From: a bacterium
GTDB taxonomy: Bacteria; Zhuqueibacterota; QNDG01; DSAB01
Direction of reading: 5' to 3'
Assembly: GCA_016931965.1 (NCBI GenBank)
Contig: JAFGDT010000115.1
Span: 1-64,000 of the forward strand
Length of the DNA: 64,000 nucleotides
The first letter of the stretch is position 1; the number at the start of each line of letters is the position of its first letter. The notes under the pieces were generated by a model that worked only from the letters and a program-made list of their open reading frames with translations, had not been told where the DNA came from and searched no databases. A program made the translations under genes and the position numbers. Shown piece by piece: positions 9,525 to 21,399 of the stretch.

Positions 9525-9553
9525 TTGACATTGAAAAAAATATTTTTTACATT
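9525..9553 (+). promoter_or_regulatory. Sigma70-type promoter upstream of polysaccharide operon leader
   Basis: TTGACA (9525-9530), 17-nt spacer, TACATT (9548-9553). Confidence 0.6.
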
Positions 9554-9559
9554 TTAGTA

Positions 9560-9728
9560 TCACAAATAGGAGAATGCCTATAAAAGTTTGTTAACGGTCT
9601 TTTGGATATATTTTCAAGATGGGTTGATCTGACGGATACCCATCCTCCATAGAGCGTTAATGAACTTTTTATCAAGACCGAATGGAAGGGTGGATTGCAT
9701 GTTGGACACCCGGACGATTCGGTTTTTT
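9560..9728 (+). ncRNA. Candidate structured leader RNA / transcription attenuator (or sRNA)
   Basis: Long stem 9582-9596 with 9655-9669 (13 Watson-Crick pairs plus tandem G-U); hairpin 9618-9624/9638-9644; terminator-type hairpin 9677-9683/9717-9723 followed by T-run; alternative 7-bp pairing 9595-9601 with 9674-9680. Confidence 0.6.
9677..9728 (+). terminator. Rho-independent-type terminator hairpin in the leader
   Basis: ACCGAAT...ATTCGGT outer stem with inner GGGTG...CACCC stem, followed by TTTTT. Confidence 0.6.
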
Positions 9729-9801: not shown

Positions 9802-11112
9802 ATGGAACTGAAAGAAAAAATTCAATCAAAAAAAGCGATTGTGGGTGTTATTGGATTGGGGTATGTTGGATTACCTCTACTTATCGAGTTTATCGAGGTC
9901 GGATTTAACTGCATCGGTTTCGATATCGACGAGAAAAAGGTGAATACATTAAATCAGAAAAAATCATACATTAAACATATCCCTCAAAATCGTATCGAAG
10001 ATATCATGAAGAGTGGGCAGTTTATGGCAACAACCGATTTCTCACAATTAGCCGAAACGGATTGTATCCTTGTGGCAGTACCCACACCACTGGACCGAAA
10101 CCATCAACCCGACCTGAGTTTTATCATCAATACATCCAATACGATTTCAAAATATCTTAAAAAGGGCCAGATGGTCATTTTGGAAAGTTCCACATGGCCG
10201 GGAACAACCGATGAAGTCATGAAACCGATATTGGAGAAATCCGGATTGCGGTGTACAGAGGATTTTTATCTTGCATTCTCTCCCGAAAGAGAGGATCCCA
10301 ACAATCCTAACTATTCCACAAAGAACATCCCAAAAGTCGTTGGAGCCAATGATGCTGCCAGTCTGGAATACGCCAAAGCTCTCTATGATGCAGTTATTAT
10401 TCAGACCGTCCCTGTTTCGTCAAGCCAGGCTGCCGAAGCGACAAAACTTTTGGAAAACATTTTTCGCAGCGTCAATATCGCACTGGTCAATGAAATGAAG
10501 ATGATTCTGGATCGCATGTTCATTGACGTCTGGGAGGTCATTGATGCGGCATCAACCAAACCGTTTGGTTACATGCCTTTTTATCCCGGGCCCGGTTTGG
10601 GAGGGCATTGCATCCCCATTGATCCCTTTTACTTGACATGGAAGGCAAGAGAATACGATATGCCCACCCGTTTTATCGAACTGGCAGGGGAAATCAATAC
10701 AAACATGCCATACTGGGTCGTGAATAAAGTGATGGAAGCTTTGAATGTGAATGCAAAGAGCCTCAATGGAGCACGCATCTTAATCCTGGGTGCAGCCTAT
10801 AAAAAGAATGTGGATGATATTCGGGAGAGTCCAACACTGAAACTCATCGAGATATTGGAGGGAAAAGGGGCTCTGGTTGACTACAATGATCCATTTGTTC
10901 CTGTTATGCCGCATGTGCGGAAGTATCAATATGATATGAAAAGCGTTGAAATAACACCGCAAAACCTGCAGCAATACGACGCCGTTATCATTTCAACTGC
11001 CCATGACGCCTATGACTATGAGACCATTGTCAATCATGCCCAGTTGATCATTGATACAAGAAATGCAACAAAAGACGTGAAAAAGAATAGAGACAAAATC
11101 GTCAAAGCCTGA
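9802..11112 (+). CDS. Nucleotide sugar dehydrogenase (UDP-N-acetylglucosamine/mannosamine 6-dehydrogenase type)
   Basis: VGVIGLGYVGLPLLIEF; YPGPGLGGHCIPIDPFYLTWKA; DDIRESPTLKLIEIL. Confidence 0.93.
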   Translation: MELKEKIQSKKAIVGVIGLGYVGLPLLIEFIEVGFNCIGFDIDEKKVNTLNQKKSYIKHIPQNRIEDIMKSGQFMATTDFSQLAETDCILVAVPTPLDRNHQPDLSFIINTSNTISKYLKKGQMVILESSTWPGTTDEVMKPILEKSGLRCTEDFYLAFSPEREDPNNPNYSTKNIPKVVGANDAASLEYAKALYDAVIIQTVPVSSSQAAEATKLLENIFRSVNIALVNEMKMILDRMFIDVWEVIDAASTKPFGYMPFYPGPGLGGHCIPIDPFYLTWKAREYDMPTRFIELAGEINTNMPYWVVNKVMEALNVNAKSLNGARILILGAAYKKNVDDIRESPTLKLIEILEGKGALVDYNDPFVPVMPHVRKYQYDMKSVEITPQNLQQYDAVIISTAHDAYDYETIVNHAQLIIDTRNATKDVKKNRDKIVKA

Positions 11113-11124
11113 ACCTTTGGATAA

Positions 11125-12462
11125 ATGGAGACCCACGATATCATGAAGATCCGAATCATTTATCTGGTTATTTTTCAAAGCCTGCTTTTATTCAATCTAT
11201 CTGAAGCACAAATTGCTGAGGAGAGTGAAAGAACTTCGGGAGAAAGAACTGCCATACCCAAAGTGATGGATTTATCAGAGATTTTTCAACTGGAGGAAAT
11301 GACCAGAGAAGATTTCGAAGTTTTAAAGAGAGAGAGAGAACAAAACATACGTGAACGATTATCCCAGATGGAAGCGCTCGAGCAGGCAATCGATCCAACT
11401 CAATACATTGTTGGGCCCGACGACATTTTCTCTTTCAATGTCTGGGGTGCAATGGAAATCCAAACACTTCTCGCTGTGACCCCCGAAGGGAAGCTTCTGA
11501 TACCCTCCGCGGGGGAAATGGATGTGAGCGGCAAACCACTCACTGAAGTTCAAAAAAGCGTCATTGAAAAGGCAGCTGGTTTTTATGAACACAGCAATAT
11601 CACACTCAACCTCGAAGGTCTCCGATTTTTTCGGGTACATGTTGTGGGTGAGGTCAAATTCCCTGGCACATACATAGCACAGGCAGTAGACCGCATATCA
11701 GAATTGATCGTAGAAGCCGGCGGTGTGACAGAAAGGGGTTGGAAAAGAGAGATCCAGTTGCGCCATCCAGATGGTGCGGTTGACTATTTTGATTTAACCT
11801 CTTTCGAACAAGAAGGAAATTTAGAAAAAGATCTCTATGTGAATGGAGGCGATGTCATCTACGTACCTCCAATTGAAATTCAAACCAATCTTGTTCAAGT
11901 TGAAGGGGATCTTGAGCATGCGGGGATATACCAAATATTCGAAGATGAAAATCTCATCGACTTCCTCAATCGCATCAGGGCACTGAAAAGGAGTACGGAT
12001 TTATCGAAAATCGTGGTCATTCGTTCCGGAGAGAATGATGGGACAAATTCCGAGAGCAAACATCTCCTATCACCTTTCTCGTCACCTTTCACAATCAGTG
12101 ATTCGATCGACCATTTTTTCCCGTTACGTCACGGAGATCGCATTGTACTCCCTTCTATGGTTGTTTATGTAAAGGGAACCGTTCAAAGTCCGGGTGCTTA
12201 TCCATATATTTTAAATCTGACAGCCAAAGATTATGCAGGAATGGCAGGGGGAGATTACAGGTCAGGGAGTATCAAGGACGTCCGGGTATTCCATACACAG
12301 ACGGGAAAAACTGAAAAGGGTCCGGATGTTTTGGTTGAGCCTGGCGATGTGGTTCATTTGAATCCCAGCTGGAATGTCCGTTTGGGGAATTACATCCAAA
12401 TATTACCAGCCATTACATCTTTGATTTTGGCTGCAAAAGCGGCTGGCTTTTTAGGAGATTAA
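11125..12462 (+). CDS. Polysaccharide export protein (Wza-type, SLBB domains)
   Basis: YIVGPDDIFSFNVWG poly-export domain; repeated SLBB segments (HVVGEVKFPGTYIAQAVDRISELIVEAGG; VYVKGTVQSPGAYPY). Confidence 0.9.
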   Translation: METHDIMKIRIIYLVIFQSLLLFNLSEAQIAEESERTSGERTAIPKVMDLSEIFQLEEMTREDFEVLKREREQNIRERLSQMEALEQAIDPTQYIVGPDDIFSFNVWGAMEIQTLLAVTPEGKLLIPSAGEMDVSGKPLTEVQKSVIEKAAGFYEHSNITLNLEGLRFFRVHVVGEVKFPGTYIAQAVDRISELIVEAGGVTERGWKREIQLRHPDGAVDYFDLTSFEQEGNLEKDLYVNGGDVIYVPPIEIQTNLVQVEGDLEHAGIYQIFEDENLIDFLNRIRALKRSTDLSKIVVIRSGENDGTNSESKHLLSPFSSPFTISDSIDHFFPLRHGDRIVLPSMVVYVKGTVQSPGAYPYILNLTAKDYAGMAGGDYRSGSIKDVRVFHTQTGKTEKGPDVLVEPGDVVHLNPSWNVRLGNYIQILPAITSLILAAKAAGFLGD

Positions 12463-12487
12463 ATCTGATCATGGGGATAATTTTCAA

Positions 12488-13678
12488 ATGGAAAAAGAAC
12501 ATTTTATCAATATTGATTTAATCAAATTACTAATAAAAAATATCAAAATCATCATTGCCACCTTTTTAATCATAACGGTCATGGCAGTCATTTTCAGTCT
12601 CATCATACCGGAACACTATCGAGGCCAAACAACCATATTACCCCCCCTTGAAGAGGACGGCCTATCCAGTTTTGCGTCATTGGTCAGCGATTTGCCTTTA
12701 AATGCATTGGGATTGGGTACTGGACCCGACCAAACAACACTCTTTTTGGCAACGCTTAAAAGCAGGACCATCATGGAAGCCGTTACAATAGAATTTCATT
12801 TAATGGAGCGCTATAAGAAAAAAAATATGGAAGAAACTGTAAAAGCACTGCGGAAGAATGTATCGACCCACTTGGATGATGAAGGAACCATTACCCTTTC
12901 AGCAATAGCCAAAACATCATGGTTTCCGTTTTTCAACAGAAGTAAAAGGGATGAAGCAAGAGTACTGTCAAGAGATATGGCCAATTTTTTTATAGAAGAA
13001 TTGGATGAGGTAAACAGACGATTGAAAACAGAAAGAGCAAGCAATACCCGAATATTTATTGAGAAACGGTATCAAGAAAATATTGCCGATTTGCATCAAG
13101 CCGAAGAGGCTCTCAAAAATTATCAAATCCAATATGGAACTATTGCTCTTCCCGAACAGACACAAGCTACGATTGCAGCAGCAGCAGAAATCAAGGCTCA
13201 AATCATTGCCAAAGAGGTGGAAATAGGCGTCCTTCAAAGATCGGTTGGACCCACACATTCTGAATTGATCAAAGCTCAAAATGAATTGACCGAATTAGAG
13301 AAAAAATACAATGAATTCGAATCTCGGCAGGGATCGTTATTGGATCATGACCGTGATGAAATTGAGAAGGATCTATTTTTGCCCCTCAACGATTTGCCCG
13401 ATCTGGGACTGCAGTATGTCCGTCTCTACCGGGAAGTGGTACTGCAGGAAACCATTATGGAATTTTTACTTCCTCAATACGAACAGGCTAAAATTCAGGA
13501 AGTCAAAGATACACCTTCCCTACAGGTTTTGGACAAAGCGGTCACACCAATCAGAAAACATAGGCCCAAAAGAGCCATACTCGTCGTCTTTTTCGGTTTT
13601 TTAAGTTTGATTTTGAGTTCAGCATATGTGATTACCAAACCCGGATTATTAAAAATTTATCACGAATTAAAAGATTAA
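12488..13678 (+). CDS. Chain-length determinant (Wzz/GNVR) family protein, no kinase domain
   Basis: N- and C-terminal TM segments, long coiled-coil; LIIPEHYRGQTTILPP; VTPIRKHRPKRAILVVFFGFLSLILS. Confidence 0.85.
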   Translation: MEKEHFINIDLIKLLIKNIKIIIATFLIITVMAVIFSLIIPEHYRGQTTILPPLEEDGLSSFASLVSDLPLNALGLGTGPDQTTLFLATLKSRTIMEAVTIEFHLMERYKKKNMEETVKALRKNVSTHLDDEGTITLSAIAKTSWFPFFNRSKRDEARVLSRDMANFFIEELDEVNRRLKTERASNTRIFIEKRYQENIADLHQAEEALKNYQIQYGTIALPEQTQATIAAAAEIKAQIIAKEVEIGVLQRSVGPTHSELIKAQNELTELEKKYNEFESRQGSLLDHDRDEIEKDLFLPLNDLPDLGLQYVRLYREVVLQETIMEFLLPQYEQAKIQEVKDTPSLQVLDKAVTPIRKHRPKRAILVVFFGFLSLILSSAYVITKPGLLKIYHELKD

Positions 13679-13683
13679 CTTCA

Positions 13684-15231
13684 ATGATCAAAAAGGGCTT
13701 TACATCTTCATCAATACTGGTGAAGAATACACTCTTTAATTTTTCGGGTATGTTACTGCCCCTTCTTGTGGGTGTTATTGCAATTCCCCTGACTGTCAGA
13801 GGATTGGGTACCGAAGGTTTTGGGATACTCTCAATCGCTTGGATCATTCTTGGATATTTGACACTTTTGGATTTTGGCCTATCCAGAGCAACAACCAAAT
13901 TTGCCGCAGAAAATCTGAATAAAAACAACCTGAATGGTATTCCATCCATTTTTTGGACGTCGATTTTAATGGGTTTTTGTTTTGGGTGTTTGGGAAGTGT
14001 CATATTGTATTTGGCGACACCCCATCTGATCAATTCGTTTTTTAAAATTCCTACAACCTATCTGAACGAAACAAGACAATCCTTTTACCTGCTGGCCTGT
14101 GTTCTACCTTTCTTACTCGTATCGATCAGTCTGAAAGGGATGCTGGGAGCAGCCCAGAGATTTGATCTGGTCAATGCGGTCTATGTCCCTGTCAGCACGC
14201 TGAATTTTATTTTTCCCGCCCTTTCCATGCCATTCGGTTTAAATCTTCCGGCGATTATCTTATTGATTGTGGTATCTCGGTTGATCGCTACAGGCGTCTA
14301 CTTTTTCCTCTGTTTAAAAATATATCCCAACTGCAAACACAAACCCCACATGGACTTGCCTCTCTTAAAAAAATTATTGTCCTACGGAGGGTGGATCACC
14401 ATCTCAGGTGTGGTAAGTCCACTTCTCGTCTATTTAGACCGGCTATTTATTGGATCCATGCTCTCTGTTGGCTTGTTAACCTACTACTCAGCTCCATTAG
14501 AAGCCATTACCCGGTTAAGGATCATTCCCCAGGCAATCATGACAACCCTTTTCCCTGAATTCAGCAAGGGTCTCAATATTGAAGACCGAAAAAGAATTTG
14601 CTTTCTCTTTGGCAAATCGGTAAAGATCCTATTGTTAACAACAGGCATCATCTCATTAATTCTTTCTTTCAATGCACATGATATTCTAAACTTATGGCTC
14701 GGCAAAACATTTGCAGAGCAAAGCACATCTTTATTTCAGATTTTCTCTGTGAGTATTTTAATCAATTTTTTAGCACTGGTTCCTTTCACCTATTTACAAG
14801 GAATAGGCAGACCGGATCTACCTGCCAAATTTCACCTTATCGAATTGCCCATTTACCTCTTCCTTTTGTGGGTTTCAATTACGACATTTGGGATTTTGGG
14901 AGCTGCCTATGCATGGCTGTTTCGTGTGACGCTTGATTTTGTTCTGCTCTACAGATGGAGTTTTAAATTTTTACCAAAATTATCTGAGGAGATACGATCC
15001 ATCGATATTAGAAAGATATTGACGCTATTACTTTTATTCGGCCTTATTCTCATCCCGATTCGTTTGATGGTGGCTCATCTCATCATAAGAATCATTTTGC
15101 TTTCAGGACTCATTATTCTCTTAGGATGGGCAATCTGGTTATTGATACTGGATACATCCGAAAAGGCGTTCATCAAATCGACCTCCGAAAAACTTTGTTT
15201 TTTAAAATGGATCCATGAGACCACGCACTAA
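13684..15231 (+). CDS. Oligosaccharide flippase (Wzx family)
   Basis: Multi-TM; NTLFNFSGMLLPLLVGVIAIPLTVRGLGTEGFGILSIAWIILGYLTLLDFGLSRATTKF. Confidence 0.9.
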   Translation: MIKKGFTSSSILVKNTLFNFSGMLLPLLVGVIAIPLTVRGLGTEGFGILSIAWIILGYLTLLDFGLSRATTKFAAENLNKNNLNGIPSIFWTSILMGFCFGCLGSVILYLATPHLINSFFKIPTTYLNETRQSFYLLACVLPFLLVSISLKGMLGAAQRFDLVNAVYVPVSTLNFIFPALSMPFGLNLPAIILLIVVSRLIATGVYFFLCLKIYPNCKHKPHMDLPLLKKLLSYGGWITISGVVSPLLVYLDRLFIGSMLSVGLLTYYSAPLEAITRLRIIPQAIMTTLFPEFSKGLNIEDRKRICFLFGKSVKILLLTTGIISLILSFNAHDILNLWLGKTFAEQSTSLFQIFSVSILINFLALVPFTYLQGIGRPDLPAKFHLIELPIYLFLLWVSITTFGILGAAYAWLFRVTLDFVLLYRWSFKFLPKLSEEIRSIDIRKILTLLLLFGLILIPIRLMVAHLIIRIILLSGLIILLGWAIWLLILDTSEKAFIKSTSEKLCFLKWIHETTH

Positions 15232-16306
15232 ATCAATGCATGCACCTTCGGTTGCGATTATCATGCTTAATTGGAATGGTTGGAAAGACACCTGTGAATG
15301 TCTGGCATCACTGTTAGAAAGTTCATATCAGGATTTTCAACTCATTCTCATCGATAATGGTTCCACTGACGGTTCGATCGATCAAATAAAATTATGGGCA
15401 AAAGGCGAATTACCTGTCTCCGTGGGGCTATTTGGAATCAAATCCAAAGCATATGTCACTCCATTGACTGAGTACAGTTTGGAGGATATAGAAAAACGAG
15501 ACGCAATGCCCGATCCATCCACCCATAATAAAATGATTTTAGTTACCTGTCCTGAGAATCTCGGATTTGCAAGAGGATGCAATGTGGGTATACGGTATGC
15601 AATAAAATCAGGATTTCAATATGTTTTTTTAATCAATAATGACACCATAGTGGAGCGATTTTGTCTCAATCAATTGGTAGATTATATGAATGACCAGACA
15701 GATATTGCAGTTTCAACTCCGCTGATTATGTACTATGACAAACCTGAAACGATTTGGGCATACGGAGGTAAACTCACATTTTTCAACCGAAGAGATATGT
15801 ATCATATGAACAAAAACGAAAAGAAAGTGCAATTGGGTACTTATAAAGAAATCTCTTTTATCTCAGGCTGTGCGATATTTGCACGTACCGAAGTTTTTAA
15901 AAAATTTGGATTATTGACCGAAAATTTCTTTTTCGGAGAAGAAGATTATGAACTGAGTTTAAGAATGAAAAAGAATCATATCAAAATGGCCGCTCTCTCA
16001 TCCGCAAAAGTATACCATAAAGTGGGAGCATCCAATACAAAAATTTACAACGATGACAGACTGCCATATGCATTCATCGGTTATTTAAACAGGTTTATCG
16101 ATAAAAAGAACCATTGCAGTGGAAACGCGAGCTGGAAATTCTGGCGGGCAATATGCCTGATCTATATTCTACCAAAACTGATCGTTATGCACCACTACCC
16201 AACAAACAGAATATATCGATTTGCAGTATTACTCATTCAGACATCGAACAGATATGATCGCGTAGACAGGGAAATGTTTTTTAAGGCGAAAGAATTACTC
16301 AGATAG
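15215..16306 (+). CDS. Glycosyltransferase family 2
   Basis: VAIIMLNWNGWKDTCECLASLL; LIDNGSTDGS; FLINNDTIVE; FFGEEDYELSLRMKK. Confidence 0.93.
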   Translation: MRPRTKSMHAPSVAIIMLNWNGWKDTCECLASLLESSYQDFQLILIDNGSTDGSIDQIKLWAKGELPVSVGLFGIKSKAYVTPLTEYSLEDIEKRDAMPDPSTHNKMILVTCPENLGFARGCNVGIRYAIKSGFQYVFLINNDTIVERFCLNQLVDYMNDQTDIAVSTPLIMYYDKPETIWAYGGKLTFFNRRDMYHMNKNEKKVQLGTYKEISFISGCAIFARTEVFKKFGLLTENFFFGEEDYELSLRMKKNHIKMAALSSAKVYHKVGASNTKIYNDDRLPYAFIGYLNRFIDKKNHCSGNASWKFWRAICLIYILPKLIVMHHYPTNRIYRFAVLLIQTSNRYDRVDREMFFKAKELLR

Positions 16307-16308
16307 CA

Positions 16309-17595
16309 ATGTACTACCTTGAAAATTATTTGGGAACACTCATACTGCTTTCATTTTGTTCTCTTATCAGTGCCTGGGAGAAACACCAAGACGGCACAAT
16401 GATCACACCCTTTGGTGTTATTGCTTGGCCCTATGCGATTATCGTGTCCATGATTAATCTGGGTGGAATATATTTTGGATTTTTCTCTGTGAGTTTAAAA
16501 AGCATTGTATTTGTAATGCTATGTCTTCTGTTTTTTCTTGTCGGTGGACGAGGAATCGGAATGATTTTCCAATACAGAAAGGAAAACAAGAATGTTTTTT
16601 TTAATCCAATTGAAAAGTTGACAGAATTATTGGATTTCTACAGACCGTTTTTTATCTCTATTGCCATTATATCAATTGTTATAGGTTATATCAACCTTTA
16701 TTTATCACTAGACCAGAATGGATGGTTTTTTCTTGCATCAAAAGAATTTGAAGAATCATATGGAAAGGGTTTGTTAGCTCACATTACACTGCTTAATAGA
16801 CCGGCCATAATATTTTTATTTGCAGACTATCTAATACATAAGAAAAAATCAATCCTTCTTTTATTAATACTTATGTTTGTCACGATATTAATACTGCAAA
16901 TTAAAAATAATATTATGACTATTATTCTAAGTTGCATTTACTTTGGATATTTTTATTCAATAATGAAATTAAACATTAAAAAGATTATAATTTATGCACT
17001 TATAATTTATGGTATATTTAATATTTCTTACGTAATCGGTTTCAGCAGAATTGGTATTGTTAACGCCTATTCATTTAAAGTTCAGCATTATCTTCTCAAT
17101 CAATTTTTTACCTATTTATTTGGAGGCCCCATAGGCTTTAGTGAAATACTAACAGATCCGACCTATCCTTTATATCAGTTTGATGCAATATTCGCAGTAC
17201 CTTTTAACTTATATAATACAATCATAGGTAACCCTGATTTAGTGAATGTCATTTTTTACCATTGGATTCCTGTTTCAAATATATACCAATATTTTCATTT
17301 ATCGAATGTTTTTGGAATATTTGGAATGCTTTATATGTACATCGGACCTTATGCGACATGGATTTATATGTTTCTTCTTGGAACTTCAATTTATTATATA
17401 AGATTCTTGGCATTCAAGAAAAATGCATTCATAGGATTTCAGCTAATATATGTATTTATGATAAGTTATTTAACCATTTCTTTTTTTGGATTATATTTCA
17501 ACATACTTATTGTCCATGAAGCTTCATTTTTTATGTTTATGATGCCATTCCTGTATCTTTTATTCAGAAGATTAATCAGGATGATTCATATGTAA
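16309..17595 (+). CDS. Wzy-like O-antigen/polysaccharide polymerase (multi-TM)
   Basis: About 10 hydrophobic segments; AT-rich; located between flippase and GT genes. Confidence 0.65.
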   Translation: MYYLENYLGTLILLSFCSLISAWEKHQDGTMITPFGVIAWPYAIIVSMINLGGIYFGFFSVSLKSIVFVMLCLLFFLVGGRGIGMIFQYRKENKNVFFNPIEKLTELLDFYRPFFISIAIISIVIGYINLYLSLDQNGWFFLASKEFEESYGKGLLAHITLLNRPAIIFLFADYLIHKKKSILLLLILMFVTILILQIKNNIMTIILSCIYFGYFYSIMKLNIKKIIIYALIIYGIFNISYVIGFSRIGIVNAYSFKVQHYLLNQFFTYLFGGPIGFSEILTDPTYPLYQFDAIFAVPFNLYNTIIGNPDLVNVIFYHWIPVSNIYQYFHLSNVFGIFGMLYMYIGPYATWIYMFLLGTSIYYIRFLAFKKNAFIGFQLIYVFMISYLTISFFGLYFNILIVHEASFFMFMMPFLYLLFRRLIRMIHM

Positions 17596-17705
17596 TCAAG
17601 AAATATTTCTAAAGATATTTTTTCGAATAAACTCATGAAAATTCCTTTTAGCATTTAAGAAACTAAAAAACAGAAATTGTTCATTCTATCATCTAAATCG
17701 ATTTT

Positions 17706-18809
17706 ATGAAATTGACATATATCAAAATGAGAATAGCTATTAAAAAAATACTGGAAAATTTCCTGATACACATGCTCACTATTTTCAACGTTAAAAAGGA
17801 GATTACAGAAACAGACAGTATTCACAAGATTGTTATTCCCTTATTTGCCGGTATTGGGGATACGCTCATATTTACATGCTGTCTTCAAAGTTTAATCGAT
17901 ATATTTCCAAAGGCAGACGTAACCTTGATTACAACAAAAAGAACGAATAATCTTCTCAATGAAACATATCCTCATTTTCGATATATCCATCTTAGGTCAA
18001 TGCTTGATATGTTCTTAATAAAACATGATTATGATCTGATGATTAGCCCGTGTCGAAATATGAGACATTATTTACTGGCATTATGGATCCATCCAAAATA
18101 TATGATCGGTTACAATTACTCATTATTGATAGAAAATGGCGAGTCGCACATCCTTCGAGCCAATAAAATTTTAAATCAATTGGGTTACCACCATTTCAAC
18201 TCTCCAATGATATCACTGTCCCAAGAAACGATAGACAAATCCTTCCAGTTGATTAAAGACCATATAAACCCCTTATCGAGGAATCCGATCGCATTGATTA
18301 TCGGAGGACGATGGGAATCGAAAACATATCCTGCAGAGAAATATCGTGAACTCGCCGAGAAATTGATAGAAAAATATGATTTAGATATCGTCCTACTGGG
18401 TACAGATTTTGAAATGGGAAATACAATTGCAAATGGGAAAAAAAAGATACAAAACCTTACCGGTGTAACAACAATTCAAGAGGTGATGGGACTGATTTAT
18501 CAATCACGATTGGTAATCGGTCCCGACAGTGGACTGCTGAACATGGCCATTGCAATGGATAAGCCCATTGTAGGCCTGTTTGGACCGGTGGATCCACATA
18601 CAATTGTACCAGATAAATATTTAAACTGTGTGTTATACCAAAATAAATGTGAACTTCAACCCTGCTTTAACGAAGAATACCAACCACAATGTCCATACGA
18701 AAAAATACCTTGCATGGACTTTCGCGTTGAGGATATCATCAGTAAAGTTGATGAAATATTATCTTTGAAAAAAAATCGGTTATCAATTCAAATGATAACG
18801 CTTAAATGA
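17706..18809 (+). CDS. Glycosyltransferase family 9 (heptosyltransferase-like)
   Basis: GIGDTLIFTCCLQSL; VIGPDSGLLNMAIAMDKPIVGLFGPVDP. Confidence 0.88.
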   Translation: MKLTYIKMRIAIKKILENFLIHMLTIFNVKKEITETDSIHKIVIPLFAGIGDTLIFTCCLQSLIDIFPKADVTLITTKRTNNLLNETYPHFRYIHLRSMLDMFLIKHDYDLMISPCRNMRHYLLALWIHPKYMIGYNYSLLIENGESHILRANKILNQLGYHHFNSPMISLSQETIDKSFQLIKDHINPLSRNPIALIIGGRWESKTYPAEKYRELAEKLIEKYDLDIVLLGTDFEMGNTIANGKKKIQNLTGVTTIQEVMGLIYQSRLVIGPDSGLLNMAIAMDKPIVGLFGPVDPHTIVPDKYLNCVLYQNKCELQPCFNEEYQPQCPYEKIPCMDFRVEDIISKVDEILSLKKNRLSIQMITLK

Positions 18810-18821
18810 ATCCGATTTACA

Positions 18822-19973
18822 ATGAAGAAATTAAAAATATTGCATATCATCACATACCTTCCAATCGGTGGGGCACAGGACAATACACTACTCACAGTGG
18901 AAGGTCTCGATAAGGATTGCTACGACATTACCTTGATATGTGGTAAGCGGGGTGAATGGATCGATCGCGCATTGTCCATAAAGGGTATCAAAATCCATTT
19001 TATCAATGAACTGATCCGGAAAATACATATTTTTTATGACGTGATTGCACTGTTGAAGATGTACCATTTCATTAAAAAAGGAAAATTTAAAATTGTTCAT
19101 ACACACAGTTCAAAAGCCGGTTTTTCAGGACGTATTGCAGCTTACATCGCCGGTGTTCCAGTCATTATTCATACACTACACGGATTCCCATTTCATGATT
19201 TTATGTATCCAGCAGAAAGGATGTTTTATATTTATCTCGAAAGATTTCTATCAAAATTATCGGGGAAAATCATTACAGTTTCACATTTAAACCGGGAAAA
19301 GGCAATCCGTCTCAAACTCAATCGTCCGGAGAAATTTATAAACATATACAGCGGAATTAATTTTAGGAGATTTAACCATTCGGTCAATGTTGTGAACAAA
19401 AAAAAAGAACTTGGCATCAGTAAAAAAGATCAGGTTGTTGGAATGGTAGGCAGACTTTCCGAACAAAAAGCACCACAATATTTCATTCAAGCCATACCCA
19501 CTGTTCTGCAAGTCCATCCTCATGTGCACTTTTTATTGGTGGGTGACGGAGAATTAAAAAATAACATCATGAAAATGACTGAAAAATTAAATATATCGAA
19601 TCATGTTTTCTTTTTGGGATTCAGAAATGATGTCCCTGAAATTTTGAAAATATTCAATGTTTTTGTATTACCATCACTTTGGGAAGGATTGGGACGGTCA
19701 TTGACAGAGGCCATGTATTCAGCATGTGCTGTGATTGGAACAGCTGTTGAGGGTGTTCCCGAATTAATAATCAATGGGAAAACAGGTTATTTGGTTCAAC
19801 CGAAAGATTCAGATGCAATTGCCCAAAGAATCCTTGATTATTTAAGTAATCCAAGAAAGGCAAAACAAATAGGTAACAATGCTCGAAAAAGAGTAATGAA
19901 AGATTTTGATGTGAATATCATGATCAACAAAATCGATCAGTTATATCAAAACATGTTGAATAAAATCAATTAA
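18822..19973 (+). CDS. Glycosyltransferase family 4
   Basis: YLPIGGAQDNTLLTVEGL; VHTHSSKAGFSGRIAAYIAGVPVIIHTLHG; LPSLWEGLGRSLTEAM. Confidence 0.93.
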   Translation: MKKLKILHIITYLPIGGAQDNTLLTVEGLDKDCYDITLICGKRGEWIDRALSIKGIKIHFINELIRKIHIFYDVIALLKMYHFIKKGKFKIVHTHSSKAGFSGRIAAYIAGVPVIIHTLHGFPFHDFMYPAERMFYIYLERFLSKLSGKIITVSHLNREKAIRLKLNRPEKFINIYSGINFRRFNHSVNVVNKKKELGISKKDQVVGMVGRLSEQKAPQYFIQAIPTVLQVHPHVHFLLVGDGELKNNIMKMTEKLNISNHVFFLGFRNDVPEILKIFNVFVLPSLWEGLGRSLTEAMYSACAVIGTAVEGVPELIINGKTGYLVQPKDSDAIAQRILDYLSNPRKAKQIGNNARKRVMKDFDVNIMINKIDQLYQNMLNKIN

Positions 19974-19998
19974 ATTTTTCTTATTCCGGACCATTCGA

Positions 19999-21399
19999 AT
20001 GTCAAAGACTATTGAAAAAAGTATCCTTTTTTTAACCGATTTTATCACGATTGCAGGCACTTATCTACTTTGGTGCAATCTTAGGTGGTCAATGGGATTT
20101 TTCTATGAAGCCGCTCCCATACGAATCCTCCCTTTGTCATTTATTCTTTATCTATTCTGGCTGGTTTTATTTCTCTTTTTCGGGCTCTACCGATTCAAGT
20201 ACACGCAATCCCGAACGGATGAATTTATTGCCGTTTTGAAGACCGTTTCGATCGGGATTTTTATTATTCTTCTCATCACATTTAATCAGAGAATCAATTC
20301 AAATCATTCAATCACTGCAAGTCGACTCATGATCATCCTTTACTGGGGAATGATGGTAGTGTTTGTAGGGGCTGCTCGTGTATTATTGCGGAGCCTCCAT
20401 CGCTATCTTTTGGTTGTGGGAATAGGACGAAGAAAGACACTCATTGTGGGATACGGTAAAAAGGCAAAGGAACTCTTTTCACAAATAAAAGATGCACCGG
20501 CAATGGGTTATCATGTTGTTGGTTTTTTTTCAATGAATGAAAAAAATCATCATAAAAGTTATCAAAGAATTCCAGTTCATCATAAACCAGCCAACTTAAG
20601 AAAATTGATTAGGGAAGAAACGATTCAGGAAGTCATTGTTGCTCTTTCTCATCGTTCAGAGCGCCATCTCGAAGAAGTCATCCAGCAATGCAACGGAACA
20701 TCTGTGGGCATTCAAATTGTTCCTGACCTTTATGATGTGATTATTGGTCAGGTGCGAACCAATCAAATCTACGGATTGCCTCTCATTGAAATCCTCCCGC
20801 AACTGATGCCCCCATGGGAAAGAATTGTAAAAAGAATCGGCGATGTCATCTTCTCCCTGTTTATCTTATTATGTTTTTTGCCATTCTGGCTCCTTATCGC
20901 ATTGTTAATCAGGTTAGACACACAGGGTCCGATATTTTATACACAAAAAAGAGTGGGGAAAGGGGGGAAAATTTTTAATATGATCAAGTTTCGGTCTATG
21001 GTTGTAGGAGCAGAAAAAATGACTGGGCCAATATGGGCAACCAATAATGATTCGAGGATAACAAAAGTTGGAAAGTATTTGAGGCGGTTACGGCTTGATG
21101 AAATACCCCAGTTTATTAATATCTTAAAAGGGGACATGTCACTGGTGGGTCCGCGACCGGAGAGACCGTATTTTGTGGATAAACTGAGTAAAGCTATTCC
21201 TCTTTACAAACGGAGATTACGGGTGAGGCCCGGTATTACAGGCTGGGCTCAGGTGAAAGGAAATTACGACCAGTCATTGGAATGTGTTAAAAAGAAATTG
21301 GAATTTGATCTTTTTTATTTTGAAAATATGTCGCTTCGAATGGATTTGAAAATCATCCTGAACACACTCTATGTTATGTTGACGGGTAAGGGGCGTTAA
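19999..21399 (+). CDS. Undecaprenyl-phosphate sugar phosphotransferase (polyprenyl glycosylphosphotransferase)
   Basis: N-terminal TM block; KRIGDVIFSLFILL; KFRSMVVGAE; LRRLRLDEIPQFINILKGDMSLVGPRPERP; RVRPGITGWAQVKGNY. Confidence 0.94.
   Translation: MSKTIEKSILFLTDFITIAGTYLLWCNLRWSMGFFYEAAPIRILPLSFILYLFWLVLFLFFGLYRFKYTQSRTDEFIAVLKTVSIGIFIILLITFNQRINSNHSITASRLMIILYWGMMVVFVGAARVLLRSLHRYLLVVGIGRRKTLIVGYGKKAKELFSQIKDAPAMGYHVVGFFSMNEKNHHKSYQRIPVHHKPANLRKLIREETIQEVIVALSHRSERHLEEVIQQCNGTSVGIQIVPDLYDVIIGQVRTNQIYGLPLIEILPQLMPPWERIVKRIGDVIFSLFILLCFLPFWLLIALLIRLDTQGPIFYTQKRVGKGGKIFNMIKFRSMVVGAEKMTGPIWATNNDSRITKVGKYLRRLRLDEIPQFINILKGDMSLVGPRPERPYFVDKLSKAIPLYKRRLRVRPGITGWAQVKGNYDQSLECVKKKLEFDLFYFENMSLRMDLKIILNTLYVMLTGKGR

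Follow-up and report, generated by a model that had tools for sequence, protein, structure and literature searches.

The window, meaning the whole stretch of 64,000 nucleotides that was analyzed, comes from an organism known solely through metagenome assembly. It contains a putative leader RNA upstream of a gene of the UDP-glucose/GDP-mannose dehydrogenase family and further genes of a presumed polysaccharide operon (Table 1). The co-orientation and spacing of the genes between positions 9802 and 21399 suggest that they form one unit, and the position of the promoter would place the 5′ end of the leader at 9560.

We re-read the promoter, the long stem, the inner hairpin, and the terminator with its T-run that a preliminary description had reported upstream of these genes, and all four were correct in their coordinates. 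The long stem (P1) consists of 15 continuous pairs (9582–9596/9655–9669; duplex, −13.4 kcal/mol). The terminator hairpin (−21.3 kcal/mol) is directly followed by T6 and ends 73 nt upstream of the ATG at 9802. The terminator scan gave 1 site against 0.0 expected, and the fold of the 241-nt region was better than chance (z −2.69; 1 of 200 shuffles was as good). The complementarity of CGGTCTT (9595–9601) with AAGACCG (9674–9680) was also described correctly. A conserved 5′ element, GGAGAATGCCTAT at 9569–9581, was absent from that description and lies within the segment that the comparative data identify as the most conserved. No conservation of the inner hairpin was observed among the relatives.

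Table 1. Positions of the leader elements and downstream genes in the window.
Feature	Position	Strand	Basis or remark
Sigma-70-type promoter, TTGACA-N17-TACATT	9525..9553	+	Re-read of the letters
Leader RNA, approximately 169 nt if terminated	9560..9728	+	Model match at 9563–9727
Strand 1, 5′ motif GGAGAAUGCCUAU (family GGAGNNNGCYUAU)	9569..9581	+	Information profile, 79 leaders
Strand 1, core AAAAGUUUGUUAACGGUCUUUUG (family NUUCGYUANNGGUUU); supplies the 5′ side of both P1 and the order-specific pseudoknot	9582..9604	+	
Inner hairpin GAUGGGU/ACCCAUC (9618–9624/9638–9644)	9618..9644	+	Within the family's variable loop region
Strand 2, 3′ side of P1 (partner of 9582–9596)	9655..9669	+	Covariation; duplex energies within a genome versus across families
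Strand 3, AAGACCGAAU; forms the left terminator arm and can pair with 9595–9601	9674..9683	+	
Intrinsic terminator (3:4), ACCGAAU...AUUCGGU then U6; arms 9677–9683/9717–9723	9677..9728	+	
UDP-glucose/GDP-mannose dehydrogenase family, first gene of the presumably controlled operon	9802..11112	+	Pfam PF03721/PF00984/PF03720
Remaining genes of the presumed polysaccharide operon: SLBB/Poly_export, Wzz/GNVR, flippase, glycosyltransferases, DUF6337, bacterial sugar transferase	11125..21399	+	

Leader copies in KSB1 and in other lineages

The window leader is the second genomic copy of a porV leader that is widespread in the candidate phylum KSB1. A DNA search detected the other copy in the window's genome (G000:C71:768) and further copies in relatives, and the relatives obtained from a pattern scan of GTDB contigs belong to the candidate division KSB1; the scan gave five loci, four of them true leaders and one a chance match. 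The gene downstream of the other copies belongs to the PorV/PorQ family (Pfam PorV, E 1e-34; NCBIfam PorV_fam, 314 bits) and scored 238 bits against the NCBIfam T9SS PorV model, slightly below the cut-off of 250 bits. In the window's genome, porV is followed by the gene of a T9SS-dependent M6-like protein (638 bits; cut-off, 600). A porV relative was present in 79 of the 83 KSB1 genomes, and in approximately 70 of these genomes the leader layout was recognized by eye upstream of porV. The common layout is a promoter, GGAGNNNGCYUAU, NUUCGYUANNGGUUU, a complementary strand, CCGAAUG...CAUUCGG, a T-run, and porV. In most relatives, the leader is likewise preceded by a TTGAC box and a second, AT-rich box.

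The covariance model R1 matched 59 of the 83 KSB1 genomes at E ≤ 0.05. R1 was built from 32 sequences that include the window copy, which scored 88.5 bits (E 5e-15 in its genome; 90.4 bits with R2), and the plain DNA search also links the window to the family. The window's genome gave just two model matches, even at E 1. The window copy combines the covariance-model match with the strand 1 motif, P1, and the CCGAAUG terminator.

Second copies were also found before other genes in KSB1. In family f19, the second copy lies upstream of a lipoprotein and beta-propeller gene pair, the end of the propeller resembling PorZ (E 4e-6, under the cut-off); the contig of G068 includes the first gene of the pair alone. 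In G006, it precedes the gene of a C25/PorU-like protein that has a T9SS sorting domain. In family f20, the leader was not recognized upstream of porV.

Three candidate loci were rejected: L033 is the chance match of the pattern scan, inside a citrate-synthase-like ORF, the DNA match at G038:C38 (L005) is merely promoter-like, and the minus-strand model match at L070 overlaps a plus-strand leader and was taken as a palindrome artefact. Separately, a AAGGAACTTTT-like box resembling the −35 element of ECF sigma factors was observed in those porV upstream regions that lack the TTGACA promoter (L063, L073, L084, L088, L111, L046, and L047; families f16 and f20), and it may represent a SigP-like switch of promoter type.

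Model searches of 245 and 393 relatives detected the leader in seven genomes beyond KSB1 at E ≤ 0.02, and in the small phylum of G136 a match at E ≤ 0.01 was found in 5 of 6 genomes. The gene downstream is porU in G136, G246, G247, G248, G139, and G228, and porV in G245, G155, and G303. The lipoprotein/propeller pair follows the leader in G246 and, with a match at E 0.11, in G139; sprA/sov follows it in G363 (E 0.022) and G139 (E 0.4). On the single contig of G139 there are three copies, one each for porU, the propeller pair, and sprA. In G363, the leader also precedes a polysaccharide operon with a dTDP-sugar dehydratase-like protein and an EpsE-like export protein. The porU, porV, and sprA identities rest on NCBIfam matches of E 1e-43 to 1e-93, the proteins being mostly cut at the locus ends and below the curated full-length cut-offs. 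Approximately six matches at E 0.02 would be expected by chance over approximately 310 non-KSB1 genomes; all seven matches nevertheless precede T9SS or polysaccharide genes, which constitutes strong evidence. The preliminary description had presented the RNA as the leader of a polysaccharide operon. It does precede such an operon but is not specific to it; the dominant context is T9SS genes.

Base pairing and its alternatives

Covariation was evaluated on 80 sequences, in statistics from which the shuffles and permutations do not remove all relatedness. Paired cells amounted to 89.9% versus 83.7% in the shuffled alignments, double changes occurred in 14 of 20 pairs versus 7.5, and 80 cells were double-changed versus 20; none of the five covariation measures was reached in the shuffles (0/500). 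When the partner was slid by one column, pairing fell to 50–57%, and all slid controls gave 24–57%. Because the alignment had been fitted to the structure, an alignment-free duplex test was added, in which duplexes within a genome were compared with those across families (20 families). The strand 1/strand 2 duplex was 8.4 kcal/mol better within the genome (p 1e-4), the strand 3/strand 4 duplex 4.6 kcal/mol better (p 1e-5), and the strand 2/strand 3 duplex 3.0 kcal/mol better (p 5e-4). The compensatory changes that the preliminary description had asked for in related genomes were found in both P1 and the terminator. The duplex test gave no significance for a family-wide 1:3 pairing over 69 leaders.

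We also barred strand 1 from pairing in silico. Over the 20 families, the number of 2:3 pairs rose from 3.9 to 14.1 (10.3 in the shuffled-middle control; p 5e-6), and the number of terminator pairs fell from 7.0 to 4.0 (6.1 in the control; p 5e-5). These statistics support a predicted family-wide alternative in which strand 2 pairs with strand 3. For the window copy alone, 13.3 pairs of 2:3 were hardly better than 11.8 in the shuffled control, and blocking strand 1 left the terminator thermodynamically unweakened. An order-specific pairing of strand 1 with strand 3 would therefore have to carry the switch there. In the window's order (f1, f2, and f6), this pseudoknot gave 59 contiguous pairs versus 47.7 after permutation (p 0.0035, 8 sequences); the same test with 11 sequences gave p 0.0001, and kinship is removed from neither value. 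The partners are GGUCUU/AAGACC in the window, GGUUUGGU/ACCAAACC at porV of the window's genome, and GGUCUGGU/RCCAGACC in the others. The antiterminator originally proposed, 1:3, accordingly covaries within the window's order, but the general alternative pairing is that of strand 2 with strand 3.

Conservation resides mostly in strand 1 and in CCGAAUG, and the loop lengths vary widely. In the window and in G000, G002, G005, G007, G008, and G009, strand 2 offers no partner to the 5′ block of strand 1. The block is conserved even there, which suggests that it is recognized as a sequence.

Some members depart from this layout. The 5′ block of L004 (1502–1632; G023:C3:7566–7696), GAGAAUGCC, has a partner GGCAUUCUC after P1 that lengthens the stem; such a partner is common among the distant members and absent from the close relatives of the window. 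In L178 (the sprA leader of G139), L036, and L035, a U-run follows the 1:2 hairpin, and in some members P1 may thus serve as an initial terminator ahead of 3:4. In L157 (G248, before porU), strand 2 recurs as strand 4 (CUUUGACG) and strand 3 is a mirror of strand 1, which makes this leader a nearly literal 1-2-3-4 attenuator.

Proposed mechanism and competing explanations

We consider the leader to be, on balance, probably a transcription attenuator whose default state is OFF and which turns ON when a factor or ligand holds strand 1. An intrinsic terminator lies between the promoter and the first gene, and an alternative helix that would exclude the terminator is supported, namely 2:3 across the family and the 1:3 pseudoknot for the window copy, whose 2:3 pairing hardly differs from the control. 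RNA polymerase would make strand 1, with its two conserved sequence blocks, first. Free strand 1 would pair with strand 2 (P1, and an extra helix in many genomes), leaving strand 3 for strand 4, and the resulting terminator would stop transcription after approximately 170 nt (OFF). With strand 1 held by a trans-acting factor or a ligand, strand 2 would be released to pair with strand 3, the terminator would not form, and the operon would be read (ON). In the window's order, the pseudoknot GGUCUU (9596–9601)/AAGACC (9674–9679) would provide a second way to dismantle the base of the terminator with most of P1 intact, and we infer that it is the likelier switch in the window copy. The default-OFF logic and the assignment of strand 1 as the sensed part are suggested by the retention of the 5′ block without a partner together with the gain of 2:3 pairs on blocking strand 1. 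The homologues and their covariation thus favor the earlier proposal that this is a regulatory leader whose terminator is conditional and whose pairings exclude one another. The conserved terminator could also be a constant brake that conveys no signal.

In a rather unlikely alternative, strand 1 would recruit, as RNA or as non-template DNA in the manner of the ops element of RfaH, a factor that lets RNA polymerase pass the leader and later terminators. The conserved part is indeed the early strand 1, and the targets are long surface or secretion operons, as they are for RfaH and LoaP. A NusG paralog is the natural guess for this factor, since long surface operons are governed by RfaH-like factors and the window's genome has a paralog of the UpxY family (NF033644, 149.9 bits; cut-off, 100). 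However, the distribution of paralogs does not fit that of the leaders. The high-quality leader-bearing KSB1 genomes G020, G034, G040, G038, and G019 and the non-KSB1 genomes G139 (three leaders on a single contig), G363, and G228 have only one NusG-family match each, below the UpxY cut-off and thus probably the housekeeping NusG, whereas G070, G071, and G078 possess NusG paralogs and no leader was recognized in them. We rejected a NusG paralog of the RfaH/UpxY type as the universal factor; another, non-NusG factor is possible. Moreover, a processive factor would not need the 2:3 alternative that appears on blocking strand 1. At a separate locus, L152 (G000:C105:17323–17601), a gene for an UpxY-family antiterminator stands shortly before a UDP-GlcNAc 2-epimerase-like gene, the usual setting of a polysaccharide locus.

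It is more doubtful still that the leader is a metabolite or second-messenger riboswitch, in which strand 1, P1, and the pseudoknot would make up an aptamer whose ligand may be a nucleotide messenger coordinating secretion with polysaccharide. A pseudoknot adjoining a terminator is the classic riboswitch geometry, and the PglZ domain of PorX, a T9SS regulator, has phosphodiesterase activity, with contacts to pGpG described in a report that cites work on oligonucleotide signalling by PorX (PMC10951265). Nearly all of the conservation is on one strand, unlike in a compact aptamer; the pseudoknot is limited to the window's order, the loop lengths are highly variable, and no Rfam riboswitch matched; the leader could nevertheless be an unusual aptamer. 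With Rfam 15 at the gathering threshold, 0 matches were obtained in the window and in 20 loci, and permissive searches gave weak matches to unrelated families, none of them credible. This agrees with the earlier placement of the leader outside the known riboswitch classes.

Leader-peptide attenuation, in which GGAG would serve as Shine-Dalgarno site and strand 2 would be freed by a ribosome occupying strand 1, is very improbable. At 7 nt from GGAG there is an AUN, which in many members leads into three codons and UAA (AUA AAA GUU UGU UAA after GGAG at 9569–9594 of the window, and the same in G136). The third base of the start codon is G in just 4 of the 79 leaders, and UAA is missing in 30 of them; variants in spacing also disrupt the frame. 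The frame is not conserved, so the pattern is probably a by-product of the consensus, and we rejected a leader peptide with a conserved short ORF. That the terminated transcript of approximately 170 nt acts in trans as an sRNA is barely credible despite its own promoter and terminator, because in several unrelated lineages the copies with good support stand before genes that are functionally linked, the pattern of a cis-element. CsrA was considered as the factor and judged unlikely from the leader sequences, as some of those outside KSB1 lack the GGA (AAGGUUCG, AAGGCAGC, and GGGGGUAG). The list of mechanisms drawn up earlier (riboswitch, protein-controlled attenuator, processive antitermination, or sRNA) has thereby been narrowed, with the NusG-paralog route unsupported as a universal one and the sRNA unlikely.

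Biological context and comparison with known systems

Leaders of one family precede both T9SS genes and the polysaccharide operon, which indicates that these two surface systems are probably switched by one signal. In Porphyromonas gingivalis, the PorU-PorV-PorQ-PorZ attachment complex anchors T9SS cargo to anionic lipopolysaccharide (PMC8545088). The leader regulon comes close to this complex together with the SprA/Sov translocon and surface polysaccharide, and the presence of the leader before polysaccharide-export operons in two separate lineages fits this biology. An RNA leader common to sprA/sov, porU, porV, and the porZ-like operon would be a regulator of the outer-membrane module. Whether the leaders form an old and widespread new class of regulatory RNA, serving as a common switch of the T9SS outer-membrane machinery (SprA/Sov, PorU, PorV, and PorZ-like) and surface polysaccharide through a new ligand or RNA-binding regulator, is in our judgment evenly balanced. 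The family provides a direct handle for finding what binds strand 1 and helps to mark T9SS genes in uncultured phyla.

The openly accessible literature, with papers on T9SS and riboswitches covered by title and abstract, gave nothing on a KSB1 riboswitch or a PorV attenuator. Conditional terminators in leaders are a known kind of element; the family and its cross-lineage T9SS regulon are new within the reach of these searches. T9SS has mostly been studied in Bacteroidota, where the known control of its genes is exerted by two-component systems and sigma factors. The PorXY-SigP system of P. gingivalis likewise coordinates T9SS component genes, but it acts at initiation through an ECF sigma factor and not through a leader RNA (PMC4800418).

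The trp, his, and TRAP-controlled leaders also have four strands, with a 3:4 terminator, a 2:3 antiterminator, and a strand 1 that decides between them. In contrast to these, the new family has no conserved leader peptide, no (G/U)AG repeats were seen in it, and its genes are unrelated. The RfaH/ops, LoaP, and UpxY leaders share a conserved element near the transcript start, surface-polysaccharide or secretion operons, and a terminator downstream; the element itself differs, and some leader-bearing genomes have only one NusG-family match. Pseudoknotted terminator riboswitches resemble the leaders of the window's order in combining P1 with a pseudoknot formed by the terminator base, whereas the present family is distinguished by its lack of an Rfam match, its one-sided conservation, and a pseudoknot that is not family-wide.
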